In this document: one piece after another, positions 7,619 to 57,559 of the stretch | Numbering within the stretch: the stretch's first letter is position 1 | Layout of the letters: the number at the start of each line of letters is the position of its first letter | Assembly (NCBI GenBank): GCA_013306675.1 | Contig: JABLUY010000145.1 | Location: 33,876-97,875, forward strand | Length of the DNA: 64,000 nt | Source: Thraustochytrium sp. TN22 | Lineage: Eukaryota > Sar > Bigyra > Thraustochytrida > Thraustochytriidae | Direction of reading: 5' to 3' | Notes under the pieces: generated by a model | Database searches by the model: none | The model's input: only the letters and a program-made list of their open reading frames with translations | Told to the model about the DNA's origin: nothing | Made by a program: the position numbers and the translations under genes

Positions 7619-10357
7619 CTACAACTCGTCCTTCTCCTCCTTCTCCTCAGCCTGCTGCTCGGCCGACGCGGGGTCCTCATCCGCCTTGTCGTCGGCTTCG
7701 CCATCCTCCTTCTCCTCGTCGGCCTTGGCCTCGTCAGCAGCAGCGGGCTTGGCGTCCGCCTTGACCTTCTTGGGCTTGGGCGGAGCCTGCGGGAGCGGGC
7801 GGCGCAGAGCGAGCTCGAGGACCGTCTGCACGGGTTCGAGGTGGGTCATGACGTCAACGCTGGTGAAGATGGCATCATCCTGCGCGGAAAGCTCGCCCTG
7901 CTTGGCCTCGGCGTCGTCGAGCCAGGCGGCAAAGTCGGCCAGTACGGCAAGCACGCGGTCCTTCTCGCCGGAGGTGATCCAGGGCCGCTCGTCGGCCCAC
8001 TTGGCGACCTGGTCACGGACCGTGTCGGCGAGGGCGCGCGCCGCGCGCACGGCGGCCGGCCGCTGGTCGAGCTCCTGCACCTTCTTGAAGAGCTTGCGGA
8101 GGCGCTTCTCAAAGGTGGAGCGGCGCGACTTGTACTCGTCCAGGGGCGCGCGCGCGCCCTCGTCGTCGAGCCAGTCCTCGAGCGCCTCGAGGTCGTCAAA
8201 GAGCTGCGTCTTGTCCGCCTCGCTCATGACCAGGTCAACCTCCTCCTCGGCCGTACGCACCTGGTCGCGCGCCTCGAAGATGAAGGCCTCCACCTCGTTC
8301 TTGGCCGCCTCGTGCATGCGGCGCTCCTCCTCGCGCTTGTCGTACGAGGCGAGCACCTCGCGCGCCGCCGCCACGGCCTCGCCGTCGATGTTGCGCAGCG
8401 GCCGCCCCGCGTCCGTGCGCTTGATGGTCAGGGGGAATCGGTGCGTGCGCTGCGTGGGCGCCTTCTTCTTGCTCTTCTTCTTGCTCTTGTCCTTTTTGTC
8501 CTTTTTGGCTTCCTTGGCCTCGCCCTCCTCCTTGGCCGCGGCGTCAGCCTCGCCCTCGCCGGCCTCAGCGTCCGCGCCGGCCTCGGCGTCTGCGTCGGCG
8601 CCGGCCTCGGCGTCTGCGTCGGCGCCGGCCTCGGTCTCGGCGCCAGCGTCGGCCTCGCCTGCATCTGCAGCCTCGGCGTCCGCGGCGGCCTCCTCCTTCT
8701 CCTCGGGCGGCGGCGCAAGCTTTTCCACAAAGATGGCCTCGGCCTGCAGGAGGTTGACGGTGTCGTTCTGGTCAAGCTTGATGGAGAGTGAAACCTTGGG
8801 CCCTTCGTACTGGCCGAACTCGGCGATGGCCTGCGGCAGGCCCGAGAGCTCGTAATAGGCGACCGTCGTGCGCTCGCCCGAGTCAGCCGAGACTCGCGAG
8901 AGCTCGCAGGTAAAGTCCTTGGTCACGTTGACGCTGACAACCTTGCGCGCGTTGAGCGCGTCGCGCGCCGCGAAGAGCGTGGCGTGCTTCTCCCAGCGGT
9001 CCGGGCCAGCCTCGACGCCCGACTCGATCAGGTCCAGCTCCACCGCGTCCATGGTGATGTCCTGCAGGCCAATGGGCCGCACGCGAAAGGTCTTGCTCAT
9101 GTTGGCGCCCATGAAGACGGCGCCCAGCGCCTTGGATTCATCGCCGTTCAGGTGGCTGCCAAGCTCCTTGCCACCCAGGTAGTCCGAGAGAATCTCCTTG
9201 ACGCGCGGCACGCGCACGCCACCGCCGATGATCTCCACGGCATGCAGATCGTCCACCGACAGGCCCGCGTCCTGGAGCACCTTGGCGATGGGCGCCGTCA
9301 CGCGCGAGAAGAGATCCTTGCCGGCGTCCTCCAGCTGCTGCCGCGTCACGTGCAGGCGCGCGTCGCGGCCGTCGTGCAGCGCCTCGATCGAGACCGGGAT
9401 CTCCACGTTGGCGCTCAGCACGGTCTTGACCTTGTTGGCCTGCGCGCGCGTGCGCTCCAGCACGCGCCGCGAGGCGCGCACGTCCTCGACACCGTGCTCC
9501 TTCTCGAAGGAGTCCAGGATCATCTCCACCAGCAGCATGTCCAGCGAGTCACCGCCCAGCGTGCGGTCCCACGCCTTGGCCAGCACGTCCACCTGCGTCT
9601 GCAGCTTGCCGCCGCTGCCGCGCGTTGGCTTGCCGTAAAAGTCAAAGAGCGTCACCTTGGTGCTGGCGCTGCCCATGTTGTACAGCAGCACCTTGTGCGA
9701 GGTGTTCGTGAACTCGTTGTACACGCCGTGCTGCACGGCGGCCGCCACGTTCTCGTCCACGAGCGTCAGCACGTTCAGGCCCGCGATCTCCGCCGCCACC
9801 AGCAGCGCCTCGCGCTGCGCTTGCGAGAAGAAGGGCGGCACCGTCAGCACGCAGTCCACCACCTTGGTCTCGATCGAGTCCGACGCCATGCGCCGCACGT
9901 AGGACAGCATCATGGCCACCAGCTCCTCCGGCAGCAGCTTGCGCTCCTCCTCGCTGCCCTTGTCCAGAATCACGCGGAAGCCGCCCGTCGCCTCATTCTC
10001 CTCGAGCTCGTACGGGATGCTCAGCGTCGACCCGAGGTGCTCGAGCTCCGCGCCGCTGCTCGGCACGCCGAGCAGATCGCGCGTGCGGAACAGCACGTGG
10101 TCCGGGTCGCGCGCCGCCATGGCCGCCGCCGTGCCGCCGTACAGCCGGCCGTCCTTGGTGAAGGCGATCACGTTATCCGTCTTGCGCTTGCCCGCCTCGT
10201 TCAGCACGATGTCAAACGCCTTGCCGGGCTGCACGTAGCCCACCTTGATGAAGGTCGTGCCGAAGTCAATCCCGATGATGGCCGCCGCCGCGGCGCTCTG
10301 CAGCGCCGCCGCCACCAGCGCCGCCGCCAACGCCCAGCGCATCTTCATGACGCCCAT
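7619..10357 (-). CDS. HYOU1: ER-lumenal Hsp70-superfamily chaperone, HYOU1/Grp170 (Lhs1) type
   Basis: A 912-residue protein of the large Hsp70 class that assists folding in the ER and acts as nucleotide exchange factor for BiP. A signal peptide (residues about 1-25, MKMRWALAAALVAAALQS) precedes the nucleotide-binding domain, which starts IIGIDFGTTFIKVGY. Further Hsp70 signatures are VLTVPPFFSQAQREALL, LTLVDENVAAAVQHG and the phosphate loop EIIGGGVRVPRVKEIL. The substrate domain holds a long Ala/Asp/Glu-rich insertion followed by a Lys block (KKDKKDKSKKKSKKK), as expected for this class. The C terminus is KDEL, an ER retrieval signal. Length is close to human HYOU1 (about 1000). A second in-frame ATG nine bases downstream could also be the start. 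Confidence 0.93.
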   Translation of the reverse strand: MGVMKMRWALAAALVAAALQSAAAAAIIGIDFGTTFIKVGYVQPGKAFDIVLNEAGKRKTDNVIAFTKDGRLYGGTAAAMAARDPDHVLFRTRDLLGVPSSGAELEHLGSTLSIPYELEENEATGGFRVILDKGSEEERKLLPEELVAMMLSYVRRMASDSIETKVVDCVLTVPPFFSQAQREALLVAAEIAGLNVLTLVDENVAAAVQHGVYNEFTNTSHKVLLYNMGSASTKVTLFDFYGKPTRGSGGKLQTQVDVLAKAWDRTLGGDSLDMLLVEMILDSFEKEHGVEDVRASRRVLERTRAQANKVKTVLSANVEIPVSIEALHDGRDARLHVTRQQLEDAGKDLFSRVTAPIAKVLQDAGLSVDDLHAVEIIGGGVRVPRVKEILSDYLGGKELGSHLNGDESKALGAVFMGANMSKTFRVRPIGLQDITMDAVELDLIESGVEAGPDRWEKHATLFAARDALNARKVVSVNVTKDFTCELSRVSADSGERTTVAYYELSGLPQAIAEFGQYEGPKVSLSIKLDQNDTVNLLQAEAIFVEKLAPPPEEKEEAAADAEAADAGEADAGAETEAGADADAEAGADADAEAGADAEAGEGEADAAAKEEGEAKEAKKDKKDKSKKKSKKKAPTQRTHRFPLTIKRTDAGRPLRNIDGEAVAAAREVLASYDKREEERRMHEAAKNEVEAFIFEARDQVRTAEEEVDLVMSEADKTQLFDDLEALEDWLDDEGARAPLDEYKSRRSTFEKRLRKLFKKVQELDQRPAAVRAARALADTVRDQVAKWADERPWITSGEKDRVLAVLADFAAWLDDAEAKQGELSAQDDAIFTSVDVMTHLEPVQTVLELALRRPLPQAPPKPKKVKADAKPAAADEAKADEEKEDGEADDKADEDPASAEQQAEEKEEKDEL

Positions 10358-10991: not shown

Positions 10992-13211
10992 TTAGAGACT
11001 CCGAACCTGCGCCTCTGAGAGGAGCGTCAGCGGATGCGCGGCGCCGAAGTTTGCACTACGCGTTGCCAGCGCGGCACGTGCGAGAGCCTTGTCGTGGGTC
11101 GCCGCAGCGAGGTAGTACTGCGACGTGGCGGTGTCCGGATGGCGCAGGCCAAGGCCTGCCTTGCGGATCTCCAGCGACCGCTCCAGCGCGGCGAGCGCCT
11201 CTTTGCGCCGCCCGAGGCCAAGCAGGGCTCTGCCCTGCGCGAGATACGCAAAGCCGAAGCGAGGGTGAGACGCGTCCAGGTGCCCACGGAGTGTGGCGAG
11301 TGCCTCCTTCGCGCACTCCAGAGCCTCCTCATATCGCCCAAGGTCCGAGAGGACCAGCGCGATATAGTAGACTGTCACTGCAGTGTACTCATGGTCCGGC
11401 CCGAGCTGCTCCTTGAAGATCTCGAGCGCCTCTTGGAATTGGCGCAGCGCCGCATCGTTCTCGCCCGTGGCCTGCAGCACCTGCGCGATGCAAGCCATCG
11501 TGGTCGCTACTAAAGGATGACTGGGGCCAAGTCGATCGATTTCCAGGCCCAGCACCTTCCGGAACTGGCGCAGCGCTGCGTCGTACTCTCCCTTGGCCTG
11601 AAGCACTTGCGCAATGCAAGCCATCGTCTTGGTCACGTCGGGGTGGCTCGGCCCGAGCTGCTCCTTTCTGATCTCGAGCACCTCTTGGAATTGCTGCAGT
11701 GCCGCATCGTACTCGCCGCTATCCTGCAGCGTCTGCGCGATGGAAGCCATCGTGGTGGCTACTTCGGGATGTCGTCGCCCGAGCTGCTCCTGGCTGATCG
11801 CCAAGGCTTCCTGGTACAGCTTCAGCGCCTCGTCATATTTGCCTTGCCGCTGGAGAACTGTCGCCATGTTCTGCTTGGTGGCCGCGGCACTTGCGCTGTT
11901 GGGCCCAACGGCAGCATCGGCAAGCTCCAGCGCATGCGTATACATGTCCATAGCGTTGTCGTAGAGACCCAGGCTTGTGAACAGCCAGCCGAGGTTGTGC
12001 ATGAGCCTGGCGAGGTCCAGATCGCTCTCTGATGCTTGGCGTCGCATCTCGACAATGCGGCGTGCAGTCTCGACCAGCCAGCGGCGGAGCTGGGCAAGGA
12101 CCGTGCCGTTGAGATGGTGGAAGCCGCCCGGGAGCGAGCTCACGGAGTCGACAATCATCTGCATCTCCTCCTTCGTGTGACACTCGGCCGCGCCGAGGTC
12201 AAAGTAGGCGAGTGTGTCGATGATGTCGTCGGGCGTCCCGTCCTGCATGAGCTGGATGAAGCGGTCGTCCTGCCCAGGCGCAAAGATGAGGTCGAGATTC
12301 TGCCCGCACTTGACGGCGCCGTAGACCTCCCACACGCACCACATGCGCGTCAGCGGGGTCGGGTGGTCCCACTTGTCGAAGAAGATGAGGCGTTCTGAGA
12401 AGTGCTCAATGGCAGCGTGCAGGCCGTGCGTGAGCAGCTCGTTCCGCTGCCGTCGGACCTCGGGCGAGAGATCTTCACCCCTGCCCAGAAGCTTGGGCTG
12501 GTTGGCACAGAAGATGTCCAGCCATACGTACGTGCGCTGCAGGTCGCGCTCGAGCGACACGTAGTGCGCGACGATGGCGTCGACCAGGTCGCCAAAGCTG
12601 CACTTGCGCGCCTGGCTCACGAAGGCACCGTCGAACGGCGCGCCAACCAGGTTCTCCCCACTCCTGAGCAGGACGTCGATATAGAACTCGCGCTCGCGCC
12701 GAGTCGCAGGGAGGACGAGGTGCTCGCACACGTCCTCGATGCTCCAGTCCGCACGCGCCTTGGCGGCGGCCATCTTCGGGTCAAAGACCACCTCGCCTTG
12801 CCCGTACGCGGCGGTGCCAATCAGCAGGCCGTCGGCGTGAGCCCCGCCCACGTGCACGGCAACCGTAGTGCCGGCATGCACGAGGGTCGCTGCGGCCCCT
12901 CGCTGGGTGGTCTCTACATCCTCCTCAAGCACGTACAGCTGTATGCCGGGGGCGCTGGTCTCCTCCAAGATGTCGGTCCAGATCGTCTGCAGCGCCGCCA
13001 CGCTCAGTCCGCGGTACCATACGATGTCGTTGCTCAGGCTGTCCTCCTGCGCCTGCTCCTGCGTCGCGGTGGCCCGCTGCACGACCTGCGCGGCCGCGGT
13101 TGCCGCGCCCGACGCGCGCCGCGCTGCCGCCGCGCCCATCGCGCCCGCTGCGCCCGCTGCGCGACTTGCGCGCCGCGTCAGCCGGCCCAGGCTCCTGCGC
13201 GCAGCGCCCAT
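10992..13211 (-). CDS. TIR-like domain / kinesin-light-chain-type TPR protein
   Basis: A 739-residue protein. After a basic low-complexity start, residues about 60-330 form a globular region with FVSQARKCSFGDLVDAIV, TYVWLDIFCANQ, RLIFFDKWDHPTPLTRMWCVWEV. This succession (strand-helix, WLDI, strand, then LTRxWCxWE) matches the layout of a TIR domain; E295 in the WCVWE motif falls where TIR NADases carry their catalytic Glu. Residues about 395-720 hold seven or so 42-residue TPRs of kinesin-light-chain/nephrocystin type, with repeats such as GEYDAALQQFQEVLEIRKEQ. The first ATG of the frame is at 13211; 37 residues of open frame upstream begin with TTG. A 24-bp palindrome lies about 75 bases upstream. 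The TPR call is certain; the TIR-like call is inference from motif order. Confidence 0.8.
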   Translation of the reverse strand: MGAARRSLGRLTRRASRAAGAAGAMGAAAARRASGAATAAAQVVQRATATQEQAQEDSLSNDIVWYRGLSVAALQTIWTDILEETSAPGIQLYVLEEDVETTQRGAAATLVHAGTTVAVHVGGAHADGLLIGTAAYGQGEVVFDPKMAAAKARADWSIEDVCEHLVLPATRREREFYIDVLLRSGENLVGAPFDGAFVSQARKCSFGDLVDAIVAHYVSLERDLQRTYVWLDIFCANQPKLLGRGEDLSPEVRRQRNELLTHGLHAAIEHFSERLIFFDKWDHPTPLTRMWCVWEVYGAVKCGQNLDLIFAPGQDDRFIQLMQDGTPDDIIDTLAYFDLGAAECHTKEEMQMIVDSVSSLPGGFHHLNGTVLAQLRRWLVETARRIVEMRRQASESDLDLARLMHNLGWLFTSLGLYDNAMDMYTHALELADAAVGPNSASAAATKQNMATVLQRQGKYDEALKLYQEALAISQEQLGRRHPEVATTMASIAQTLQDSGEYDAALQQFQEVLEIRKEQLGPSHPDVTKTMACIAQVLQAKGEYDAALRQFRKVLGLEIDRLGPSHPLVATTMACIAQVLQATGENDAALRQFQEALEIFKEQLGPDHEYTAVTVYYIALVLSDLGRYEEALECAKEALATLRGHLDASHPRFGFAYLAQGRALLGLGRRKEALAALERSLEIRKAGLGLRHPDTATSQYYLAAATHDKALARAALATRSANFGAAHPLTLLSEAQVRSL

Positions 13212-13285
13212 GTTGCCGGCCTGCGCCTTCGCGCTCTGCCGCCCGCGCGATGCACGAGAGCGGGCGAGGTTTGCAGGTACGAGAG

Positions 13286-13309
13286 CGAGATCGGCACGTG
13301 CCGATCTCG
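13286..13309. promoter_or_regulatory. Perfect 24-bp palindrome with CACGTG core
   Basis: The half-site CGAGATCGGCAC is followed without spacer by its exact reverse complement, so the centre is CACGTG, an E-box/G-box core. It lies 75-98 bases upstream of the ATG at 13211 and so probably in the proximal promoter or 5' leader of that gene. Confidence 0.65.
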
Positions 13310-13568
13310 TTACAGCTCGCAAAGGCTCGTGCTACGGGCTCCACTGGCAGGCCGGGTTGTAAAGTCGTGACGTCGTAAAGCCTGTCACAGGAACACGGCT
13401 GTCGGGACTCGGAGACGCTTGATCGACCAGCGACCAACGACCGTGACAACAGACTACGACGCAATTTCGAGCATTTTCGGCCATTTTCGGAGAACGGGCA
13501 TGTTCTCGTCGAACAAGCCAGAGAGCTACGCTTTGCGGAGGCCAGGGCAGAAGTGTCTCGAAGTTCCA

Positions 13569-18979: not shown

Positions 18980-20227
18980 TCATGAAGAGGTAATGTGGAT
19001 GTGAGGAGGCCGGGGCATGGAGCCATAGCCTGACCTGGCGCCATCACCGCCGCCGAAGTTGCCGTGCAGCACCTTTCCGATGAGCTCGTCGACCTCCTCA
19101 TCGTCCTCTTCCGAGTCCGCGTCCGCGTTGCGATGCTCGTGGTTGTGCTGCAGAACATAGGAGCCTGCGAGAGCCAACACGACGCCCGCGGCAAAGAGAA
19201 CGGCGCGCGACGGCACCGAAAAGGCGTCGAACTCTTCAAAGTACATCATGCCGCCAAGAATGGCGAGCAGCGTGTTACTAATGGTGAGCAGCGGCACGAC
19301 GAGCACGGCCTCGCCCACGGCCAGTGCCATGTTGAGGCTTACAAGGGCGCCGAGCGCCGCGGCCACGAAGACCGCCAGCACGGCGTAGGCCGAGGGCGAG
19401 GTGGCCAGACCGCGCCACGTGGAGCTACCGTGCACGAGCTCCGTCAAGCACTTGCCCAGGAGCACCGAAACCGACCCGCACGTGGCGGAGAGGATGGTCC
19501 ACACGAGCGCGTGCACACGATGACCACGGCCCAGGCTCCGCATCCCGAGCACGGCGCAGATAAAGATGATGGTGCCCTGCAGGCCCGCGTAGAGCTTGAA
19601 GCTCAAGAGCGCAAAGTGTCGGCGCAGCTCGTTCACGTCGAGGCCCACCGGCCCGGACACCGAGCCGTCGTTCCCGTTGGCGATCACCACAAAGGCCGCA
19701 CCCATGACCACCAGGCAGGTGCTCGCCATGTCGGCGCGCGAGAGGTGCTCCCCGAGGACCAGCGAGGCGAAAATGGCGTTGAAGACCAGCGACGACAGGC
19801 TAAGCACCGCCCACACCGTCTCGGGCAGGAACGAGAGCGCCACCAGGTTGAGCACCTGGCCGGTCGAGTACAGCGCTAGGCCGGCGGCCCAACGCACGTT
19901 GCTGGCGCCGCGCGTCATCACGAAGACGCTGGCCGCGCGCGTCATGGCCAGGTCCTCTCGCGCCAGGCTCAGGTCCTCGAAGAAGGACGCGGACGACGTC
20001 GTGCGCCGCGGCGACAAGTGCCGCCCCGCGCCCTCGTCCACGTTGCCGCGCGCGCCCATGGCCATCATCGGCGGGATGATCGCCGCTCCATTCTCCGGGA
20101 ACGGCGACGCCGCCTCCATGAGCTCCTGCTCGTCCACGGTCACCACCGCCTTCATCACGATGAGCCCCAGGTTCGACAGCACGCTCGCCGTCACGCACAC
20201 CACGCCGCCCACCACCGGGCCCGACAT
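18980..20227 (-). CDS. NIPA-like/DMT-fold membrane transporter (possible Mg2+ transporter)
   Basis: A 415-residue multi-pass membrane protein. About nine hydrophobic segments are visible, beginning VVGGVVCVTASVLSNLGLIV and ending AVLFAAGVVLALAGSYVL, in the drug/metabolite transporter arrangement. The NIPA magnesium-transporter family fits best: an N-terminal helix with SNLGLIVMK, a segment ALSFLPETVWAVLSLSSLVF, and a late one with TISNTLLAILGGMMYFEEF. A hydrophilic insertion (about 37-100) separates the first helices, and the C-terminal tail is acidic and His/Gly-rich. I chose ATG 20227 because the first membrane segment starts there; the frame continues to an ATG at 20383 with 52 basic, UTR-like residues. 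Substrate is inference. Confidence 0.75.
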   Translation of the reverse strand: MSGPVVGGVVCVTASVLSNLGLIVMKAVVTVDEQELMEAASPFPENGAAIIPPMMAMGARGNVDEGAGRHLSPRRTTSSASFFEDLSLAREDLAMTRAASVFVMTRGASNVRWAAGLALYSTGQVLNLVALSFLPETVWAVLSLSSLVFNAIFASLVLGEHLSRADMASTCLVVMGAAFVVIANGNDGSVSGPVGLDVNELRRHFALLSFKLYAGLQGTIIFICAVLGMRSLGRGHRVHALVWTILSATCGSVSVLLGKCLTELVHGSSTWRGLATSPSAYAVLAVFVAAALGALVSLNMALAVGEAVLVVPLLTISNTLLAILGGMMYFEEFDAFSVPSRAVLFAAGVVLALAGSYVLQHNHEHRNADADSEEDDEEVDELIGKVLHGNFGGGDGARSGYGSMPRPPHIHITSS

Positions 20228-20936
20228 GCTGCCAGCTGCCAGCTGCCTGCTGCTGCGCGCCGGCGCCCGCGCCTCGCGACGCGACGCGCTGCCCAGTGCC
20301 AACGTAGTAGCCGCTTTGCATCCAAGGCTCGAGCGCCGCGAGCAACCTGGCCACTGTCCGGCTGCCACTGATCGCCTCATCATCTCGTCTCGTCAACCGC
20401 GATGATGATTGACCCCCAACCGCCAACTCGCGGGCTCCAAGCTGGGCACCGCCGCCAACGCCGTTGTGGGGCTCGCGCTCTTTCTGGTCAATGTCAGATC
20501 AGGCTGCGTGCCGTCACGACCTGGGCCAACACGATGGCCTCGAAAAGGAGGGTTGACGCGGCGAGGGGCGAGGGGCTCAGGCCCGGGCAATCGTGCGCGG
20601 GAGGCCGCGGTGAGGCAAGACGGCTGGCGATGGGGTGCTTGATGCGCGATGCTCCCCTAAGTGGCCAGCTTGGAGGACGTGGCGCTCCCAGAGTGTTTTC
20701 AGTCAGATTCCTCTCTCGTTCGGAAGCTTGCACGCCGGCTCGCAGGCACTGGCGCGTGGAATGCTGCGCATCTACGCCGTGCGAAACGTCCTCGCGGCCA
20801 GGTGGCTCCGACCGCACGGAGCTGCCGATCTGATCATCTGTGCAACTTGGAAAGTCACTTGCAAGAGTCATCATCATGTCACCAATATTTAGGCCTAGAC
20901 GCTTGGAGCAGGCAAAGGCCGGCATTCCTGCTGGAC
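20228..20936. other. Intergenic region
   Basis: No supported gene. It holds the upstream region of the transporter and the 3' side of the oligopeptidase gene. Sequence is mixed in composition with no long repeat. Confidence 0.5.
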
Positions 20937-39453: not shown

Positions 39454-39622
39454 ACTCCCCTCGACACGGGGCTCGCGAGCCTCGGAGTCTGTTTGACTGA
39501 CTTGTTCGCTTTGGAGAAGAGGCCTCTGTTTTTTCCCTCGGAGTCCGAGTGCGAGTTACTGTTGGAGCACGCACGTCCTGTCCGCAACCGTTTCAGACGC
39601 GAGCGCGACGGCCCGGACCGCG

Positions 39623-39629
39623 TATAGTA
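39623..39629 (+). promoter_or_regulatory. TATA-like element upstream of RPB5
   Basis: TATAGTA in an otherwise GC-rich stretch, 73-79 bases upstream of the RPB5 ATG, where a core promoter would lie. The match is weak and isolated. Confidence 0.25.
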
Positions 39630-39701
39630 CAGGCGTGGCGCCGTCGAGCCTGGGCGCCAGTCGCGGTCGCGGGCGCGCGGGCGCGGGCGGCGCGCGGCGC
39701 G

Positions 39702-40334
39702 ATGGGGGACGAGGTGTCGGTGACGGACGTGTTCCGCGTGGTGCGGACGCTGGCGAGCCTGCTGCGGCACCGCGGGTACAATGCGGACGTGTGGAAGGAC
39801 CTGACGCTGGACGCCTTCATCCGGCGGTACTGCGGCCCGGACAACAAGCTGGAGCTGTCGGCGCTGGACCTGGACGCGCACTTCTTGCACAAGGACACGG
39901 GCGAGAAGATCATGGCGCGCTTCCCGCATGAAGAGAAGGTGGGCGTGGCGCCCATCCGCAGCTTTTCGGAGGAGATGGTCAAGCAGGGGTGCTTGCGCGG
40001 CATCCTCGTGCTGCGCGACAGCATCTCGCCCTTTGGTCGTCAGGCCATCCAGGTGTCCAAGCCGGCCTGCACATTGGAGTACTTTAGCTACGCTGAGCTT
40101 AAGTTTGACCTCGTCACGCACGAGATGGTGCCCAAGCACGAGGTGCTCGGCGAGGCCGAGAAGAATCTGCTTCTAAGGCGCTTCAAGATCAAGGCCGAGC
40201 AGCTGCCGCGCATGCGTCACAACGACCCTGTCGCGCGCTACTACGGCCTGTCCAAGGGCACGGTCGTGCGCATCACGCGCAAGAGTGACACCGCTGGCTC
40301 CTACGTCACGTATCGCATCGTGACCGGTGGCTAG
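39702..40334 (+). CDS. POLR2E: DNA-directed RNA polymerase subunit RPB5 (shared by Pol I, II and III)
   Basis: A 210-residue subunit common to the three nuclear RNA polymerases; it forms part of the lower jaw that contacts downstream DNA. The N-terminal jaw domain has VFRVVRTLASLLRHRGYNAD and LDLDAHFLHKDTGEKIMARF-like segments. The C-terminal assembly domain, shared with archaeal RpoH, is strongly conserved: MVPKHEVLGEAEKNLLLRRF, QLPRMRHNDPVARYYGLSKG and TVVRITRKSDTAGSYVTYRI. Length matches the human and yeast proteins (210 and 215). The ATG at 39702 is followed by MGDEVSVTDVF. It lies 248 bases after the CSPP1-like gene on the same strand. RPB6 lies about 25 kb away, unlinked functionally. 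Confidence 0.97.
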   Translation: MGDEVSVTDVFRVVRTLASLLRHRGYNADVWKDLTLDAFIRRYCGPDNKLELSALDLDAHFLHKDTGEKIMARFPHEEKVGVAPIRSFSEEMVKQGCLRGILVLRDSISPFGRQAIQVSKPACTLEYFSYAELKFDLVTHEMVPKHEVLGEAEKNLLLRRFKIKAEQLPRMRHNDPVARYYGLSKGTVVRITRKSDTAGSYVTYRIVTGG

Positions 40335-41048
40335 CTAGCTAGCTAGCGAACTTCTTCGCCAACACCTGGCTGGCCTGGCTGCCTGGCTGAGTTGGCTCGC
40401 TCTCTCTCGCTCGCGCGCTGTCCGCCACCGCCACCGTAGCACACATGTACCCTGTTTGGCGGCGTTTGGCGGCGCCGGCCGACCTGTGCCGCGCCGGCGA
40501 GGCCCTCCTCTTGACTTGACCAAGACTCTTACCAAGTAGAAAGCATCAGCTCTTCAAAAGTTAGTTTGGAAGCTCTCTTTCAACAAAGGAAAATCATGCA
40601 CCCTCGACCGTGAAGCCCTCATGCCGCGCCCCGCCTCTGTGAGGTCCCACGTCCACGCCCTCAGCCTCCCTCGTTAGTACGGCGCCTTGCCTCCCTGCCT
40701 CCGGTGGTGCCCGGGAGCCATGATAACGCCGCCCAGCTCTCCGGAAACTCGCCCAAAGTCTCCCGAACGACTCCGAGGGCCACGTGGCCGGGCGGGAGCC
40801 CGCCGGAGCGGGCGTCGCGGCGCCCGGCGCGGCCCCGCGCGGAGACCCGCGCAGCGGTCCTGGCGCTCAGCTGGCGCGGCGGGCGGCGCCGGTTAGGCCC
40901 CTTGGGCGGCGGGATAGGGCGTTCCGAAAACGTGGCGGCGGAGGGCCTCACGCCGCACTGCAGCGCGGCGGCGGCGGCGCGCGGCGGGCAGACCGGAAGC
41001 GGCGCGGGCGGCGGCGGCGGCGGCGGCGCGGGCGGCGGCGCAGGCAAG
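40335..41048. other. Intergenic region
   Basis: No supported gene. Just after the RPB5 stop it has a run of CTAG units (40331-40348). A CTTCAAAAGTTAGTTTGGAAG stretch lies near 40552. The final 150 bases are GGC-rich leader of the next gene. Confidence 0.5.
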
Positions 41049-42359
41049 ATGGGCAAGGCCAAGGCCAAGGGCGCGGCCGGCGCCGGCAAGGCGGCCGAGA
41101 AGAAGCGGGAGAAGATCGTGGAGGACAAGCTCTTCGGCATGAAGAACGCCAAGGGGCGCAAGGCGCGCGCCATGGCCAAGCAGGTGCAGGCGTCGGTGCA
41201 GGGCGGGCGCGGCGGCGAGGCGGCGGCCGCCAAGCGCGCCGCGGAGAACAAGAAGGCCAAGGAGGCGCAGAAGGCCGCGGAGAAGGAGATGCTCGACCTG
41301 CTGGGCGACGCTTACGCGCTCTCGGGCAAGGGCAAGATCAAGTCCAAGGAGCAGAAGAAGGCGAAGAAGCGCGTGGACGAGGAGAACAAGGCCAAGGCCG
41401 AGGAGGCCGCCGCGAAGCAGGCCGAGGAGGACGAGCGCGACTTTGGCATGCCCATTTGCCCGCTGCGCGAGGTCTTCGGCCTTGGCCAAAAGGCCGTCGT
41501 GGAGCGCATCTGCGTCGAGCTCGTGCACAAGGACAACCTGGCGTCCAAGGCCTTTGACGGCTCGCCGTGCCTCAACATCAAGATCGTGGACGGCACCACG
41601 CTCAACCCGATGACCATGGTGCTCATCGGCGAGAGCCCGCAGTCCTTCAACCTCAAGGCGGGCATGATTTTGGACATCCGCAACGTGACGGCCATGGTGC
41701 GCGGCCAGCGCGTGCTCTTTGAGGTGCCCAAGGGTGCCCAGGGCCTCTCACAGCCGGACCCGGGCGTGGAGACCTCCATCACGGAGGCGAGCGAGCGCCT
41801 CACCAAGTACATCAAGGAGAAGATCGTCGAGGAGGAGGAGATCCGCGAGCGCGGCGGCATTCCCATCGAGGAGCGCATTGAGGAGGCGCGCGCCAACTTG
41901 ACGGGCGAGCTCACGCCCGTCACCAAGGAGCGCTTTTTCGCGTGGAAGGAAAAGAAGCGCAAGGAGCGCGAGGAGGCCGAGCAGAAGGCCGTCGAGGCCA
42001 ACAAGAAGGGCAAGGCTGGTGCCGTGCTCAGCGGCCGCGCCCTCTTCCAGTTCGACCAGTCCGTCTTCCAGGACGATGACGGCGCCATGGATAACGACGG
42101 CTACGCGCTCGACGAGGAGTACGAGGCCAACGGCCCTGAGGCGACCAACCGCTGGAACCAGGGCCAGGATGACGATGGCGATGATGATGACGAGGATGAC
42201 GAAGATGACACCGACGCTGAGGACGACGGCACCACGGGCGCGGGCGCAAAGCCGCCAGCAGCGCCTGGCAAGGACGAGACGCTGTACCTGGAGGGCGACG
42301 ACGATGACCTGGACGACCTCGATGATGATGATGACGACGATGATGATGACGACGAATAG
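41049..42359 (+). CDS. ZC3H15/DFRP1 (Tma46)-like protein with central OB-fold-like domain instead of CCCH fingers
   Basis: A 436-residue protein that looks like the DRG-GTPase partner DFRP1/ZC3H15 at both ends. The N terminus has the family start (AEKKREKIVEDKLFGMKNAK) and a Lys/Ala-rich helix. The C terminus carries the DRG-binding region: EERIEEARANLTGELTPVTK, RFFAWKEKKRKEREEAEQK and GAVLSGRALFQFDQSVFQDD, then a long acidic tail. Between them, at about residues 135-235, the usual two CCCH zinc fingers are absent: the segment has only three cysteines and instead reads as a five-strand barrel (VVERICVELVHKD, CLNIKIVDGT, TMVLIGES, GMILDIRNVTAMVRG, RVLFEV), most like an OB fold. Known relatives act with DRG1 on translating ribosomes. 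The ATG at 41049 follows a GGC-rich leader. Confidence 0.85.
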   Translation: MGKAKAKGAAGAGKAAEKKREKIVEDKLFGMKNAKGRKARAMAKQVQASVQGGRGGEAAAAKRAAENKKAKEAQKAAEKEMLDLLGDAYALSGKGKIKSKEQKKAKKRVDEENKAKAEEAAAKQAEEDERDFGMPICPLREVFGLGQKAVVERICVELVHKDNLASKAFDGSPCLNIKIVDGTTLNPMTMVLIGESPQSFNLKAGMILDIRNVTAMVRGQRVLFEVPKGAQGLSQPDPGVETSITEASERLTKYIKEKIVEEEEIRERGGIPIEERIEEARANLTGELTPVTKERFFAWKEKKRKEREEAEQKAVEANKKGKAGAVLSGRALFQFDQSVFQDDDGAMDNDGYALDEEYEANGPEATNRWNQGQDDDGDDDDEDDEDDTDAEDDGTTGAGAKPPAAPGKDETLYLEGDDDDLDDLDDDDDDDDDDDE

Positions 42360-42865
42360 ACGCGCCACCGTTCGACTCGGGTCCCCCGGCGCGTGACAAG
42401 CGAGCGCCCCTCGCTGCAACTGCATTTTGACAAGCACGTTCGAGAGAGGGTGTCACACGCGATGATGCTGCGCGCCCTGCATCGCATCGCATCGCATCGC
42501 ATCGCATCGCATCGCATCGCATCGCATCGCATCGCATCGCATCGCATCGCATCGATCGCATCGCATCGCATCGCATCGCATCGCATCGCATCGCATCGCA
42601 TCGCATCGTATCGCATCGCATCGCACACAGCCACACAGTTTCACGACACAGACCAAGCACAAGTCCGAACCAGGATTTTTTAAAAAAGACAAAATCACTT
42701 CACACGATATTTTGCTGACTGACCTCTTGCTTGTTTTGCTGGCCTCCTTTTGCTGACTGTTTGGCAAGTGGTCGATCTCTGGCCTGGACTGTTGACACGT
42801 GAGGCAAGTGCCAAACAGCAAAACGATCACGTTGGCTTGACTCCAATCATTGCACGTCACTCCGC
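42360..42865. other. Convergent 3' spacer
   Basis: No gene. A GCATC pentanucleotide array fills 42480-42625; the rest is AT-richer than average, with a T/A-rich patch at about 42670-42700. Confidence 0.6.
42480..42625. repeat. (CATCG)n pentanucleotide array
   Basis: About 29 pentamers (CATCG) with one phase slip near 42553 (CATCGATCG) and one C-to-T change near 42609. Lies between the stops of convergent genes. Confidence 0.95.
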
Positions 42866-43990
42866 TCAAGAGCGATCGGCCTTGTGCTCGGTAAAGTCAA
42901 AGCCCTGGCCAAGAGAACCAAGCGAGCGCGCAGCCACCTGCGGCTTGAGCGGCTTGGGCTGCGAGGCGTGTGGCTTCCAGCCAATCATGTAGACAATGTC
43001 AAAGGTGGCCGGCACGTAGCCCTCGTCGTCACCGAAGAGGTGCTCGTAGATGGCGGCGGCGGCCATGAAGGTGTCGCGCGAGACGTGCGCGCGGCGGTTC
43101 CAGATGCCGTTAGACTCGCCCATGGCGCTAAGGTCCTGCATGCAATGGAACGCCGAGCGGTAGTCGACCGTAAAGGTCTCGACGTCGACGGTGGTGAGCG
43201 TGAAGCCGGCGTTGGTCAGCATGCCGCAGGCGTCCGCATGGCGGATCATGGGGGAGACGTGCGCCGAGATACCGCCCTCGCGCTCCTGCTCGGCGATGGC
43301 GAGCGAGGTGCGCAGCTCGTGCAGCGTGTCGCCGCCAAACATGGCGCCGATGAAGACACCGTCGGGTCGCAGCGCGCGCTGCACGCGCGCCAACGAGTCC
43401 GTCAGGCCGTTGGCCCAGTGCATGGAGAGCGAGCTCATGACGAGGTCAGCCGATTCGGCCTCCACGGCCGCCAGGCAGTCCTCGAGCGGGCCCACCCGCG
43501 TCTCGACGTCCAGGAGGCCCTTGGCCTCGGTCTCGGCCTTGAGGCGCGCCGCCTCGGCCATGGCCGGCGCCGGGTCCATCTGCACGAGCTTGCGAATGCC
43601 GGCCGGCGCCTCGAAGTCCTCGCCCTCGCCCACGCCCTGGCGCAGCAGCTCGGTGAGGCAGTTCCCGGCGTTGCAGCCGAGGTCTACGGCCACGTCCAGG
43701 TCGCGCGAGATATCGCCGATGCGGTCCACCACGCGCGCGGCCGCGTGGTCGCGCAGATACTCGAAGTCGCCGCCGCTGCGCGCGAAGGCGCGCGCCGCGC
43801 GCTCCTTGTGCAGCAGCTTGACGCGCGGCTCGAAGGGGTCGCGCGTCGCGGACGCCGGGCGCCCGCCGCCGCCGGTGCCGCCATCCGCGGCTCCCGACAG
43901 CGCTCGCACGGCGCTGGGTGCCGTCAGGGCGGCGGCGGGCCGCCGCCACGCCGCGCGCAGCGCGCCACGCCCCCCTAGCGTCGGCAGCAT
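42866..43990 (-). CDS. NDUFAF5: Mitochondrial complex I assembly factor NDUFAF5 (methyltransferase fold)
   Basis: A 374-residue class I methyltransferase-fold protein. NDUFAF5 uses SAM-type chemistry to hydroxylate an arginine of complex I subunit NDUFS7 early in assembly. The first ~35 residues are Arg/Ala/Leu-rich without acids (MLPTLGGRGALRAAWRRPAA), a likely mitochondrial targeting peptide. The cofactor motif is VAVDLGCNAGNCL, slightly unlike the standard GxGxG. Family-specific stretches are very clear: SSLSMHWANGLTDSLARVQR, RPDGVFIGAMFGGDTLHELR, EREGGISAHVSPMIRHAD, LSAMGESNGIWNRRAHVSRD and VPATFDIVYMIGWKPHASQP. The first ATG of the frame is 43990. It is the nearest sign in this window of a respiring mitochondrion with complex I. 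Confidence 0.95.
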   Translation of the reverse strand: MLPTLGGRGALRAAWRRPAAALTAPSAVRALSGAADGGTGGGGRPASATRDPFEPRVKLLHKERAARAFARSGGDFEYLRDHAAARVVDRIGDISRDLDVAVDLGCNAGNCLTELLRQGVGEGEDFEAPAGIRKLVQMDPAPAMAEAARLKAETEAKGLLDVETRVGPLEDCLAAVEAESADLVMSSLSMHWANGLTDSLARVQRALRPDGVFIGAMFGGDTLHELRTSLAIAEQEREGGISAHVSPMIRHADACGMLTNAGFTLTTVDVETFTVDYRSAFHCMQDLSAMGESNGIWNRRAHVSRDTFMAAAAIYEHLFGDDEGYVPATFDIVYMIGWKPHASQPKPLKPQVAARSLGSLGQGFDFTEHKADRS

Positions 43991-44508
43991 CTTGCGCTTC
44001 TGGCGAGTGGCGTCTTGCTGCTGAGTGGTGCGGGGCGCCGAGGTCGAAGGCAGGCCAAGGCGCCATGAGCAGGCAGGCGCAGGCAGACGCCGTCCAACTT
44101 GAAGTACTAAAAAAGAACGCACAGTGGAAGGCGCGCAACGTTGGGCAGCGCTGGCGCATCTTCGCGGACAACGTCAAGGGCCCGGCGTTTATCCTGCGCC
44201 AAGAGTTGTCTCCGTGGTAGTACCCGGTGATGATGAGTGGCACGAGTTACACGGTCCGAGGAGATCTTGCAGGGCATTGCAGTGCGTTGCAGTGGCCATG
44301 TGACGGGCATGGCTTCGTGGCACTGTCGGCCAGGGCCGGGCCGAGACGTGGGCGATGCAGGTTGAAACGGTGCAAGTGTTGCGCAAGATGTATGCCTGCC
44401 TATTCATTGCGTGAATATTCCGTGTTGGCGCAAGCGCGCATCAGCAACAATCGTCGTGGATAGGGGTATCGCTCGAAGCTGGGCCAGCTGAGGGGATGGT
44501 GAACAAAG
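43991..44508. other. Intergenic region
   Basis: No supported gene. CCAACTTGAAG lies at 44094-44104, about 100 bases upstream of the NDUFAF5 ATG. Around 44270-44300 there are three GCATTGCAG/GCGTTGCAG copies. Confidence 0.5.
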
Positions 44509-46104
44509 TCATTCGAGGAGGTCGATGGGCCGGTTCTCGAGCCAAAGGCGGCGGGCTTCGACCATGTAGGGCTCGGAGATGGAAACCTTGTAAGGAGAGG
44601 GGTTGAGGGAACGGATGTGGTCCTCGCGAAGAAGACCCATCTGGGTCTTGACGCGCTCCTTGGCCGCCTCGACCGTGGGGAAGTCGATGAGCAGCTTGCC
44701 GTTGTCGAAGGCGGGTAGGAGGATCTCGATGACCTCGGTGGGGCGCACGTCGCACTGCTTGCGGTCGTCATAAGGGTGGCAGCAACGGATGACCTCACCC
44801 GGAATGGGTTCGGGCTCGTCGGCGTGCTGCATGATGTCGGCAAGGGCGTTGCCGTTCTTGCCGAGGAGGCGAAAGACGCGCTTCTTCCCTGGGAGGGTGG
44901 TCTTGTGGAACTCGTTGGAGAGCTTAACGCAGGGCTCGCCGTGGACCTCGACGAGCTTGTAGACCATGCCGAGCGCGGGCTGCGCCTGGCAGGTGACGAG
45001 ATTGGTCCCGATGCCGTAGGAGTCGATCTCGTGGCCCTGCTTGGCGAGCGAGTGCAGAACGTCCTCGTTGATGTCGTTGCTGGCGACGATGCTGGCCTGG
45101 AGGTCGTGCTTTTGGAAAATGGCGCGCGTCTCCTTGCTGAGAAAGGCGAGGTCGCCCGAGTCGAGGCGGATACCGATGGGCTTCTTGCCGAAGACGTCGC
45201 GCAGCACGAGCGCGACGCAGATGAAGTTGGGCACGCCGCTGTGGAGCGTATCGTAGGTGTCGACGAGCGCGAGGAAGCCGTTGGGGAAGGCCTGCGCGTA
45301 GGCGACGAAGGCGACGAGCTCGGACAAGTTGGTATTCGTGTAGCCGAGGGTCTCACGCATGGTGAAAACGGGTTCCCAGAACTCCTCGCCGTCGAGCAAG
45401 GTGTCGTGGAGGTCATCGATCGAGCGAAAAGAGCTGACGAAGGCATGTGCGTGCGTGCCCTTGACGGCGACGTCGAAGAGCTTGCCGGCCAGCACGTTGC
45501 TGGTGCCGTCAAAGCCGCCAACGCAGGCGTAGCGGCTGGCGGTCATGCCGCCGTCGGGCCCCTGTGCGCGGCGCAGGCCGAACTCGAGCAGCTGCTTGTC
45601 CGCGCCGGCGGCCTGGCGCATGCGCTGCGCGTTGGTGGCGATGAGCGAGGGGTAGCCGCACAGGGTGAGCAGCGTGGTCTCGAGCAACTGGCAGATCGCG
45701 AGCGGGCCCTCGACGCGCAGCACGGGCGTGCGCGGGAAGACGACCGAACCCTCCCCCATGGCGTGGAGCGTCACGTCGCGCGCGTCCACGGTGGAGAGCC
45801 ACTCGAAGAACTCGGGGTCGCACCCGGGCATGACAGAGCGCAGGTACTCGATGTCGGACGGGGAGAACCCAAACGAACTGGTGAAGCGCAGCACCTCGTC
45901 CAGCCCGCAGAAGATGGTGTACTCGCCCTCGAACGGGTTCTTGCGGAAGAACATTTCAAACACGCTGTGCTCCTCGTGCCTCTTGGCGCGCCAGTACCCG
46001 TAGCACATGGTGATCTGGTAAAAGTCCGTCAGCAGGCCCGTCACCAGCGAGTTGTACGGCACGAAGTGCTGCTGCCGCGACAGCGGGCTCATGGGCACCT
46101 GCAT
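44509..46104 (-). CDS. NAPRT: Nicotinate phosphoribosyltransferase
   Basis: A 531-residue enzyme of NAD synthesis (Preiss-Handler route): nicotinate plus PRPP, with ATP, gives nicotinate mononucleotide. The start SLVTGLLTDFYQITMCYGYW is diagnostic. Other conserved stretches are FEMFFRKNPFEGEYTIFCGL, LLEFGLRRAQGPDGGMTASR (holding the catalytic-site region), GGFDGTSNVLAGKLF, GTHAHAFV, IGIRLDSGDLAFLS, ASNDINEDVLHSLAKQGHEI, DSYGIGTNLVTCQAQPALGM and YKVSISEPYMVEARRLWLEN. Length is close to human NAPRT (538). The ATG at 46104 is the first in frame; 42 residues of upstream frame, Gly-rich, begin with GTG. No signal peptide, so cytosolic. Confidence 0.97.
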   Translation of the reverse strand: MQVPMSPLSRQQHFVPYNSLVTGLLTDFYQITMCYGYWRAKRHEEHSVFEMFFRKNPFEGEYTIFCGLDEVLRFTSSFGFSPSDIEYLRSVMPGCDPEFFEWLSTVDARDVTLHAMGEGSVVFPRTPVLRVEGPLAICQLLETTLLTLCGYPSLIATNAQRMRQAAGADKQLLEFGLRRAQGPDGGMTASRYACVGGFDGTSNVLAGKLFDVAVKGTHAHAFVSSFRSIDDLHDTLLDGEEFWEPVFTMRETLGYTNTNLSELVAFVAYAQAFPNGFLALVDTYDTLHSGVPNFICVALVLRDVFGKKPIGIRLDSGDLAFLSKETRAIFQKHDLQASIVASNDINEDVLHSLAKQGHEIDSYGIGTNLVTCQAQPALGMVYKLVEVHGEPCVKLSNEFHKTTLPGKKRVFRLLGKNGNALADIMQHADEPEPIPGEVIRCCHPYDDRKQCDVRPTEVIEILLPAFDNGKLLIDFPTVEAAKERVKTQMGLLREDHIRSLNPSPYKVSISEPYMVEARRLWLENRPIDLLE

Positions 46105-46148
46105 CTCGGCGCCGCCCCGCCCCGCCGGGTGCGCCCTGGTCGCCGCGC

Positions 46149-46179
<31 letters not shown>

Positions 46180-47545
46180 GAGTGTCAGCCTGCGCGCGGC
46201 GCCCAGCAGCCGCTGCCGCGCACCCGCCACGCCGCGCCGCCCTTGCTCCGGAATCTTGCCGCGCGCTCGGATACTGCCGCGCCCGCGCCGTGCCGCGTCG
46301 CGCCTCGCCGCGCCGCTCGCCGAAGCAGGCCGCGCCCGAGGTCAGCGGACCAGCAAAGGAGGCAGCCAGGCCGCAGCGAGCGCGCCGCGAGCGAGCGGGA
46401 GCGCGAGCGAGCGAGCGAGGGAGCGAGCGAGCGAGCGCCGCCGCGGCCACGCGCTTCGTCCGCCAGCCGAGTCCAGCCTGTCCGCCAAGGGAGAGCTCAC
46501 GCGCGCCAGGAGGGCCTCGGTCTCGGCTCCGCGCGGTGAACGGGGTCTGCGCGGGCGTGGCCGCCGACTGCGCCGGGCGCCGGCTCAGCTCGCCCGCCGA
46601 GAGCGGCCACGGCGCGCGCGCGGCCGACCCGACCCGACCCGTCCCCCGCGGCCCGTTCTTCAATGGCAGCTTCAAGTTGGAGTTGGACGCCGGCGACAGG
46701 TGCACGCCGGCCGCGGAGGTGCACGCACCAGCGCCGCGGGACAACATTGGCAAAAGGGCAGTGACAAGGGGCCAAGGGCGGCGCCCGCAGTGGCGCGTGC
46801 ACGCTGAGAGCGGCGTGGCCGTGCGTTGCGCCGCGCTGGCCGCCGGCGGGCCGGCTCGAGACTCGAGAGCGGCTCGGCTGGCGGGGGACTTGGTTGCGGC
46901 GCGTTGCGGCCTACTCGGGGTCGTCGAGTCACGCAGGCCTGGGCGCCGCGGAGAGCTGCCAGTGGCCGTGGCCGGCCCGGGCGAGAGTCGCGTCACGTCA
47001 CCACTGACTGGACTTTTCTACTAGCGCCGCGCTTGACGTTGACTCACTGTCAATGACAGTGAGTGTGACTCTGTGTGAGTCGCGGTTCTTCAACTTGAAA
47101 GTTTCCAGCTGCGCAGTAACATTAACTACTGCCTGGACACCCACAGAAAGGACTCGCTCGGAGGCGCGCGCGACGCCGTCCGGCCAGCCAGCTAGCTTTC
47201 CAGAATCCAGGCCTCGCCGCTCCTGACCTGACGAGTCGCGTCTCGGAGGACGGGTCGCCTTGGTTGGAGCACGACTCAAAGAACGAGACAGAGGAAGGCC
47301 CAGCGGCGACCAGCGCGGCTGGCTTTTCTCTCGCCGGTCCTCGGTCGCTCCTTGGACGAGGACTCGGATTCAGCTGAGCGAGCCCAACCCGTGACCGCGA
47401 GCGGCGCCAAGTCCGAGTCGTGTTGAAGAAGCAAGTACGGGAAACGTCGCGGACGCCCGTCTGCCTGCCAGCTGGTGATGGCTGCCATGGCTGACAGTGA
47501 GCAACTTGTGCAAAACTGCATGATCTAAGTAAGTTATGTGGTCAT
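46105..47545. other. Long intergenic region
   Basis: About 1.4 kb with no supported gene. It holds the NAPRT upstream region with a (GAGC)n run (46394-46435) and CTTCAAGTTGGAGTTGG (46670-46686), a perfect inverted repeat at 47042-47064 followed by CTTCAACTTGAAAG (47089-47102), and the 3' side of the hydrolase gene. Open frames here are Arg/Ala-rich shadows without recognisable motifs. Confidence 0.5.
47042..47064. repeat. Perfect 11+1+11 inverted repeat
   Basis: ACTCACTGTCA, one A, then TGACAGTGAGT. Further GTGACTC/GTGAGTC copies lie within the next 20 bases. It lies between two minus-strand genes, far from either start. Confidence 0.75.
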
Positions 47546-56287: not shown

Positions 56288-57559
56288 CTACTCGGGGACG
56301 GGGGAAACCATGTTGTTGCTGTTGCCGCCGTCGTCCTCCTCGTCCTCCTCATCCTCATCGTCGCCGCCGAGCGAGGAAACCCACTTGACGAAGGTGACCA
56401 GGAACTCCATGTAAGAGATCTCGCCCGAGCCGTCCAGGTCGAGCTCGTTCCAGCGCTCCTTGTTCATGAAGCCGGAAATAAGGTTGTTGTCGGACTCTTT
56501 GCGCGACACAGGCTTGGAGGACTTGTTGCGCTTGGTGGCCTTGCTCGAGCGGCTTGAGGAGGCGTTGACGAGGTCGTCGGGCTCCGGGTGGACGAGCTCC
56601 CCGGATTCCGGGTCGATGTCGCCGCTCATCACGTCCTCCTTGGAGTTCTTCCACGTGTGCACAGCAATGTTGCGGCCAGACGAGGTGGTCCGCGTAAGCT
56701 GCGCGAACATGGTCTTCTTGTCCTTGCTGCCCTGGCGGACGCCACTCAGGAGACCGCTGAATGAGCCGCGACGGCTGCCCTTTTGCGTCGCCAGCAATAG
56801 CGTGCCGGCGTCGAGGGAGTTGCGTCGCGCCGCCGAGTCACGCCGCCGCTGGCTGCTGGCGCGGGTGTCCTTGGTCATCTCCGACTCCCCCGTAGAGGCG
56901 CTCAGCGCCTTCTCCATGTCCTTGTACGAGATGACGCCCGAGCACGAGACGTCGAAGGCGAGGAACATCTCCGTGGCCAGCTCGAACACGCGCCGCACAC
57001 CCTTGGTGTCGGCAAAGATCTTTGACGAGGACTGCGCCCCGGCCTCCACCGAGAGCTCCGGAATGAGGTCGAGAATGTACGCCAACCCGATGCAGCAGAT
57101 CAGTTCCTTGAACTGCACCGATCCGTCCTTGGACACGTCAGCGTCCTGGAAAATGGCCTGAATGGTCTCTTTGGTGATGGCCGGGTTCAGCTTGTGCATG
57201 AGGATCTCCACTTCGTCAAATTCCAGGCTCCCGCTCTTGTCCGTGTCCGTCTCGTCGTACAGTCGGTGTAGCTCCGAGAAAGTCTTCTGCATCTTCGGGA
57301 AGTTCAGGAGCACGCGGTTCACGCACGAGCTGTGCGTTCGTCCCGCCTGCATGCGCTCCTTGTTCTTCTCCTTGAGGGTCTTGATGACGCGCTGCTCCAG
57401 CGCGCTGTGCTCCTCGGCCGAGACGGTACGGCGCTTCGCGTCATACTGCGTCGACCCGACCTCGGGGTGCGAGTTACTGCGGCTTAGCTTCTGAATCGAC
57501 AGCGACCGCGCCGTGCCCTGCTGCTGCTTTTTCGACGACACGCTCGACGCGGCGCCCAT
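56288..57559 (-). CDS. Probably myristoylated EF-hand calcium-binding protein
   Basis: A 423-residue calcium sensor. The start MGAASSVSSKK fits an N-myristoylation signal (Gly2, Ser6, basic residues following), so membrane attachment is likely. EF1 loop (residues 105-116, DTDKSGSLEFDE) and EF2 loop (141-152) are canonical. EF3 (203-214, DVSCSGVISYKD) has Asp at the last ligand position. EF4 near the C terminus reads DLDGSGEISYME and is canonical. Between EF3 and EF4 lies a long Ser/Arg/Lys-rich linker (about 220-370) with many basic-Ser sites, for example RRRDSAARRNSLD and RGSFSGL, likely kinase targets. The tail is acidic. I do not recognise a named family; the arrangement differs from neuronal calcium sensors by this linker. 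The ATG at 57559 is the first in frame. Confidence 0.85.
   Translation of the reverse strand: MGAASSVSSKKQQQGTARSLSIQKLSRSNSHPEVGSTQYDAKRRTVSAEEHSALEQRVIKTLKEKNKERMQAGRTHSSCVNRVLLNFPKMQKTFSELHRLYDETDTDKSGSLEFDEVEILMHKLNPAITKETIQAIFQDADVSKDGSVQFKELICCIGLAYILDLIPELSVEAGAQSSSKIFADTKGVRRVFELATEMFLAFDVSCSGVISYKDMEKALSASTGESEMTKDTRASSQRRRDSAARRNSLDAGTLLLATQKGSRRGSFSGLLSGVRQGSKDKKTMFAQLTRTTSSGRNIAVHTWKNSKEDVMSGDIDPESGELVHPEPDDLVNASSSRSSKATKRNKSSKPVSRKESDNNLISGFMNKERWNELDLDGSGEISYMEFLVTFVKWVSSLGGDDEDEEDEEDDGGNSNNMVSPVPE

Follow-up and report, generated by a model that had tools for sequence, protein, structure and literature searches.

A putative DRG1 partner of Thraustochytrium sp. TN22 with a predicted OB barrel at the place of the DFRP1 zinc fingers

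The open frame at 41049..42359 of the window (the whole stretch of 64,000 nucleotides that was analysed) raises the question of what occupies the centre of a DFRP1-type protein when the two CCCH zinc fingers of this family are absent. According to PMC8629797, DFRP1 stabilises DRG1 and stimulates the DRG1 GTPase, Dfrp1 carries two zinc fingers, the recruitment of Rbg1 to ribosomes is thought to be performed by Tma46, the CCCH fingers of Tma46 touch the 40S RNA, and a Tma46 mutant of the second finger does not rescue a triple deletion. In the same source, DRG1 and its partner are described as present in yeast and human, the RNAs contacted by the partner being still unclear (PMC8629797).

The frame is intact between its ATG start and TAG stop, and the positions of its predicted parts are collected in Table 1. 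The same frame is open further upstream, yielding 551 aa when counted from GTG at 40704; the ATG was identified by alignment as the start position shared with most of the complete homologs. Upon search of the gene against its own genome at E 0.001, the sole match was the gene itself. The neighbouring frames of the window with Pfam matches (39549-40334, 42866-44122, 44509-46230, 18980-20383, 10992-13322, 7619-10357, and 56288-57559) are ordinary, these being RPB5, a methyltransferase, a nicotinate phosphoribosyltransferase, a NIPA-type transporter, a TPR protein, HSP70, and an EF-hand protein. Rfam and tRNA scans of the 64-kb window gave no matches. An array of about 30 copies of the pentamer GCATC is located at 42479-42625 of the window, some 120 bases beyond the 3' end of the gene.

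Table 1. Predicted features of the OB-type DFRP1 gene, in positions of the window
Feature	Position	Strand	Basis
OB-type DFRP1 gene, 436 aa plus stop	41049..42359	+	Single open frame
N-terminal DFRP1 motif, aa 15-48	41091..41192	+	Family profile match to Tma46 5-71
Predicted OB-fold domain, aa 131-229, in place of the two CCCH fingers	41439..41735	+	
Helix after the barrel and before the DRG-binding region, aa 249-267	41793..41849	+	AlphaFold2 secondary structure, fragment residues 125-143
DFRP_C (DRG-binding), aa 271-355	41859..42113	+	Pfam PF16543; family profile match to 4a9a_C
Acidic low-complexity tail, aa 346-436	42084..42356	+	Sequence and alignment

The two ends of the protein were examined for their relation to known DFRP proteins. 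DFRP_C was the sole Pfam domain identified, with a score of 69.3 bits against the cut-off of 27.5 (E 4.2e-19). The N-terminal DFRP1 motif of the DKTFG / NKNKSKKVQ type is kept in a divergent form, DKLFGMKNAKGRK, and scored 51.8 bits with a local HMM that includes the window protein among its own rows. As a single sequence, the window protein gave no match in PDB at E 1. A family profile (A1) consisting of 21 rows, 19 of the OB type and 2 finger-less, matched two distinct PDB chains, both being Tma46 (7RR5 chain T and 4A9A chain C); along 7RR5 chain T, residues 5-71 and 206-272 were matched and no stretch between them. This unmatched stretch is the part of Tma46 that carries the fingers. These matches show that the protein belongs to the DFRP family and has kept the DFRP1 motif at its N-terminus as well as the DRG-binding region at its C-terminus.

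Residues of the DRG-binding region were then compared with those of Tma46, of which, as described in PMC3510508, F246, W249, and H253 stack on Y264 and W278 of Rbg1, and changes at I241, F246, W249, and K250 decrease the GTPase activity with Rbg1 binding retained. F296 and W299 of the window protein align with Tma46 F246 and W249. By a residue pattern that demands both of these letters, the equivalents were identified in 26 of the 27 OB proteins; the remaining record is 212 aa long and stops within the OB domain. At the position of I241, 23 of these 26 matching proteins have V, 2 have L, and 1 has I; at that of K250, 15 have K and 11 have L; and at that of H253, all 26 have K, R, N, or Q. K or R is likewise found at the H253 position in the CCCH proteins that match the pattern (8/10). 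On the side of the GTPase, the DRG1 of the host (L007, 987-1142) keeps the equivalent of Rbg1 W278 and has Ser as the equivalent of Y264. The kept contact residues are no proof of binding because the interface mutants of Tma46 still bound Rbg1. Contact between the window protein and DRG1 through the DFRP_C end is likely from the residues kept, with details not identical to those in yeast. The earlier note on this DNA had taken both ends as matching DFRP1/Tma46 and the GTPase-binding end as kept, and both statements hold.

Between the two ends, no zinc finger was detected. A Pfam search with the maximum E set at 10 identified no CCCH domain in the window protein, neither the finger HMM nor the CCCH pattern gave a match, and the only cysteines are those at 137, 155, and 174. 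At the level of the protein sequence, these scans show the absence of the CCCH fingers. A zinc site is unlikely as a family trait because the number of cysteines varies from 0 to 5 per protein across the 27 OB members, with none in P0011; a metal-binding remnant in the OB members was ruled out on this range of cysteines, none of the proteins fitting the CCCH pattern tried. Pfam also identified no RWD domain, the mark of DFRP2, in the window protein.

The structure of this central part was predicted by AlphaFold2. The model of aa 125-272 (pLDDT 90) is an OB barrel with five strands, at fragment residues 25-37, 49-56, 64-69, 83-94, and 97-102, and its nearest neighbours among the matches listed by structure comparison were POT1, Teb1, RPA70, and SSB, with Z up to 12.1. 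A second model of lower confidence, constructed from the most divergent relatives, was also OB, with Z up to 13.0. Most of the 50 matches listed per structure comparison were nucleic-acid-binding OBs, together with a few uncharacterised OB domains, and the identity to the structural neighbours among the matches listed was 8-19%. By these two models, the finger region is predicted with confidence to form an OB barrel of the RPA/POT1/SSB structural class. The three cysteines and the five-strand pattern of the earlier note were thus reproduced, and of the checks that it had proposed, structure prediction of the centre gave a barrel of the OB type, a search for the same architecture elsewhere gave 26 other collected proteins with the OB domain, and a search for a second, canonical ZC3H15 in the genome gave none. 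Neither of the two outcomes named in the note as refuting its interpretation was thus obtained in the searches and models made.

The OB domain is conserved in sequence within its own group. In the alignment A2, of which the 20 rows are 33-68% identical to the window fragment, a total of 14 positions within aa 131-229 are invariant, including R153, D181, G182, T184, P187, K203, D209, R218, and E225. Among the basic positions of the barrel, R153, K203, and R218 are present in 20/20 rows, and the positions of K148, K161, and R211 hold either Lys or Arg in all 20. The OB centre is not a product of chance because 26 other proteins have it and these 14 positions are invariant. The net charge of the OB domains of A2 ranges from -4 to +2, and the number of aromatics from 4 to 9 per domain when His is counted. 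Given the conserved basic positions together with the neutral charge, nucleic-acid binding by the barrel is plausible. Sequence searches led to no named OB family: OB-only Pfam scans gave three single weak matches, the OB-only profile against PDB two chance-level matches (E 0.52 and 0.7), and PF21473 (Ssb-like OB) against the genome at E 1 no match. A Pfam scan of the 20 rows of A2 gave marginal DUF5666 matches in 4/20 (best E 0.019) and Stk19 in one row (E 2.7e-5).

Relatives were collected by two whole-protein searches, in which scoring was limited to the 7985 and 7986 candidates with the most words in common, and by one central-domain search, which required shared 5-residue words and gave 5 proteins among 29 candidates; the 93 relatives, or 94 proteins with the window protein, are a collection and no census. 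Sorting of these 94 by two HMMs, built from 20 (OB, the window fragment being one row) and 6 (fingers) of the same proteins, gave 27 with OB, 10 with fingers, 57 with neither, and none with both. The scores were 119-152 bits for the OB type, the window protein included, and 136-216 bits for the CCCH type. Among the 57 proteins with neither, P0094 is of RWD type and the other 56, with lengths of 214-315 aa, are DFRP_C proteins; some of these come from short contigs and are perhaps incomplete. P0023, P0026, P0027, and P0042 are examples of the finger-less DFRP1 type, and the legible organism names among the finger-less proteins are diatoms and Tribonema minus. The aligned rows of OB type are 34-61% identical overall to the window protein, and because of this span the OB architecture is probably old. 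Three OB records, P0005, P0008, and P0080, come from MMETSP transcriptomes, indicating that the architecture is transcribed and is no assembly fusion. An annotation or assembly artefact was ruled out because the architecture recurs in metagenomes, assemblies, and MMETSP transcriptomes, with 26 other proteins in all.

The set of DRG and DFRP genes was examined in the 37.9-Mb assembly of 453 contigs, which was searched exon by exon and without intron models. The DRG1 gene (L007, C18) scored 333 bits with Rbg1 versus 273 with Rbg2, and the DRG2 gene (C385) 272 bits with Rbg2 versus 252 with Rbg1. DFRP_C was found, at E up to 10, in three places: the window gene, a separate gene (L003) for a protein with RWD and DFRP_C, hence DFRP2, and a match below the cut-off in a frame labelled PH-like by eye. 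With the DFRP_C and P0055 queries, no canonical ZC3H15 was found in the contigs searched. The canonical ZC3H15 query (P0055) matched the N-terminus of the window gene (E 5.4e-6); its seven other matches were weak, with E between 0.008 and 8.4, and of these, six were in the finger region of P0055 and one in its acidic part. CCCH fingers in general are common in the genome, with 39 matches at E 1. A long and very regular tandem repeat is located beside the DRG2 gene (L005, about 400-1040), in which the frames read as repeats such as GRKPWQ. The chlorophyll-binding family gave no match in the genome at E 0.001, which suggests that the host is non-photosynthetic.

Taken as a whole, the locus is best explained, and in our judgement probably, as encoding the DFRP1-type partner of DRG1, in which the OB barrel performs the RNA-contact job of the fingers. 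The C-terminus would wrap DRG1, stabilise it, and stimulate its GTPase, as Tma46 does for Rbg1; the barrel would take over the contact either with mRNA or with the RNA of the ribosome, that of the 40S in the case of yeast; and in this way DRG1 would be kept at the GTPase centre of ribosomes that are translating or stalled. The partner role is supported by the presence in the genome of DRG1, DRG2, and an RWD-type DFRP2, with no canonical ZC3H15 found. Against the explanation were counted the near-neutral charge of the OB domain, its few aromatics, and the missing match to a named OB family, and, at the interface, the Ser of the host DRG1 at Rbg1 Y264, the Leu at K250 in 11/26 proteins, and the replacement of His253 in 26/26. 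We infer that the barrel may contact rRNA or mRNA. The architecture could be right, and the barrel a protein-interaction or structural module that binds no nucleic acid, its docking site being, for example, a ribosomal protein or a different factor. OB folds are protein-protein modules as well, a common fold in itself says nothing on function, and in classical ssDNA-binding OBs the bases are usually stacked on aromatics; the charge and aromatic content of the domain, and its lack of sequence kinship with any named nucleic-acid-binding OB family, agree with such a module. We nevertheless consider it rather unlikely, as the structural neighbours listed are mostly nucleic-acid-binding OBs, the basic positions stay invariant in 20 rows of 33-68% identity, and the barrel is located between the conserved ends, where Tma46 and ZC3H15 have their fingers.

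The OB domain may have come in by a direct swap or by a loss of the fingers followed by gain of the OB domain, since the diatom and Tribonema proteins have neither. The second route, in which a finger-less DFRP1 as in diatoms and Tribonema preceded the later insertion of the OB domain, is possible and we give it somewhat less than even weight. It draws on the short DFRP_C proteins without fingers or OB, 56 of the 94 collected, some perhaps incomplete, and on the DFRP_C tree, in which the 22 OB and 16 finger-less rows fall, with weak support, on the same side of the root as drawn, together with 5/10 CCCH rows. The tree, however, was made on 86 columns from 48 of the 94 proteins (22/27 OB, 10/10 CCCH, and 16/57 with neither, hand-picked) and has few firm forks, an unsettled bootstrap, and long-branched CCCH rows, so that gain and loss are not separable on it; the OB label needs 2 changes and is not recovered as one clade, a single clade being not rejected (p-AU 0.317). 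That the window protein is instead an unrelated protein sharing a DFRP_C-like stretch, with the true ZC3H15 at another locus or hidden in a gap of the assembly, is very improbable. The 453 contigs and the exon-by-exon search leave some room for it, but DFRP_C was found only in the three places given above, the canonical query returned the N-terminus of the window gene and seven weak matches, and the window protein has both the N-terminal motif and DFRP_C.

Among known systems, the window protein resembles Tma46, the yeast DFRP1, in the DKTFG/KNKN motif, the DRG-binding region, and the F and W that contact Rbg1, but differs in that it has no fingers and a predicted OB barrel, whereas Tma46 has CCCH fingers in contact with the 40S RNA (PMC8629797). 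ZC3H15 / Lerepo4, to which P0055 and P0089 are annotated as homologs, has the same ends in the same order and a similar length (365-430 aa in the 10 collected), whereas all 10 CCCH proteins are without an OB HMM match and all 27 OB-type proteins without a finger HMM match; on this sequence comparison, the window protein is a DFRP1-type variant without the two fingers by which ZC3H15 is recognised. The short DFRP1 of diatoms and Tribonema (such as P0042 and P0027) shares the N-terminal motif, DFRP_C, and the absence of CCCH fingers, but is only 214-315 aa in length and without the OB domain. RWDD1 / Gir2 (DFRP2) has the DFRP_C domain in common, but carries an N-terminal RWD, and such a gene is separate in this genome (L003). 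The OB domains of Pot1, Teb1, RPA70, and SSB are unlike that of the window protein in sequence, with 8-19% identity among the matches listed and no sequence-profile match.

Within the open-licence PMC literature, where absence is a weak indication, no description of an OB-type DFRP1 was found; DFRP1/ZC3H15 together with OB-fold gave one paper, in which OB-fold stands only in a cited title on TPP1, and DRG family regulatory protein together with stramenopile gave none. A tentative proposal, for us close to an even call, is that a whole lineage of eukaryotic microbes has replaced the two zinc fingers by an RPA/POT1-type OB barrel for the contact of the DRG1 partner with ribosome or mRNA. If true, unrelated folds would be able to serve in positioning DRG1 on the ribosome, and translation would have recruited a module for single-strand binding of the type used in genome maintenance. 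A natural replacement of the fingers by OB would set the presumed role in RNA contact apart from the binding of the GTPase, and would offer a ready-made chimera, with OB substituted for the Tma46 fingers in yeast, for asking whether the same place on the 40S is reached. The occurrence of three central states (fingers, OB, and neither) points to a middle part of DFRP1 that changes far more readily than the two ends.

The OB domain was also compared with a viral structure library (BFVD). At E 0.001, two matches were obtained, of which the top was Q4A2A1, an uncharacterised protein of Emiliania huxleyi virus 86, with E 9.9e-5 and 10% identity.
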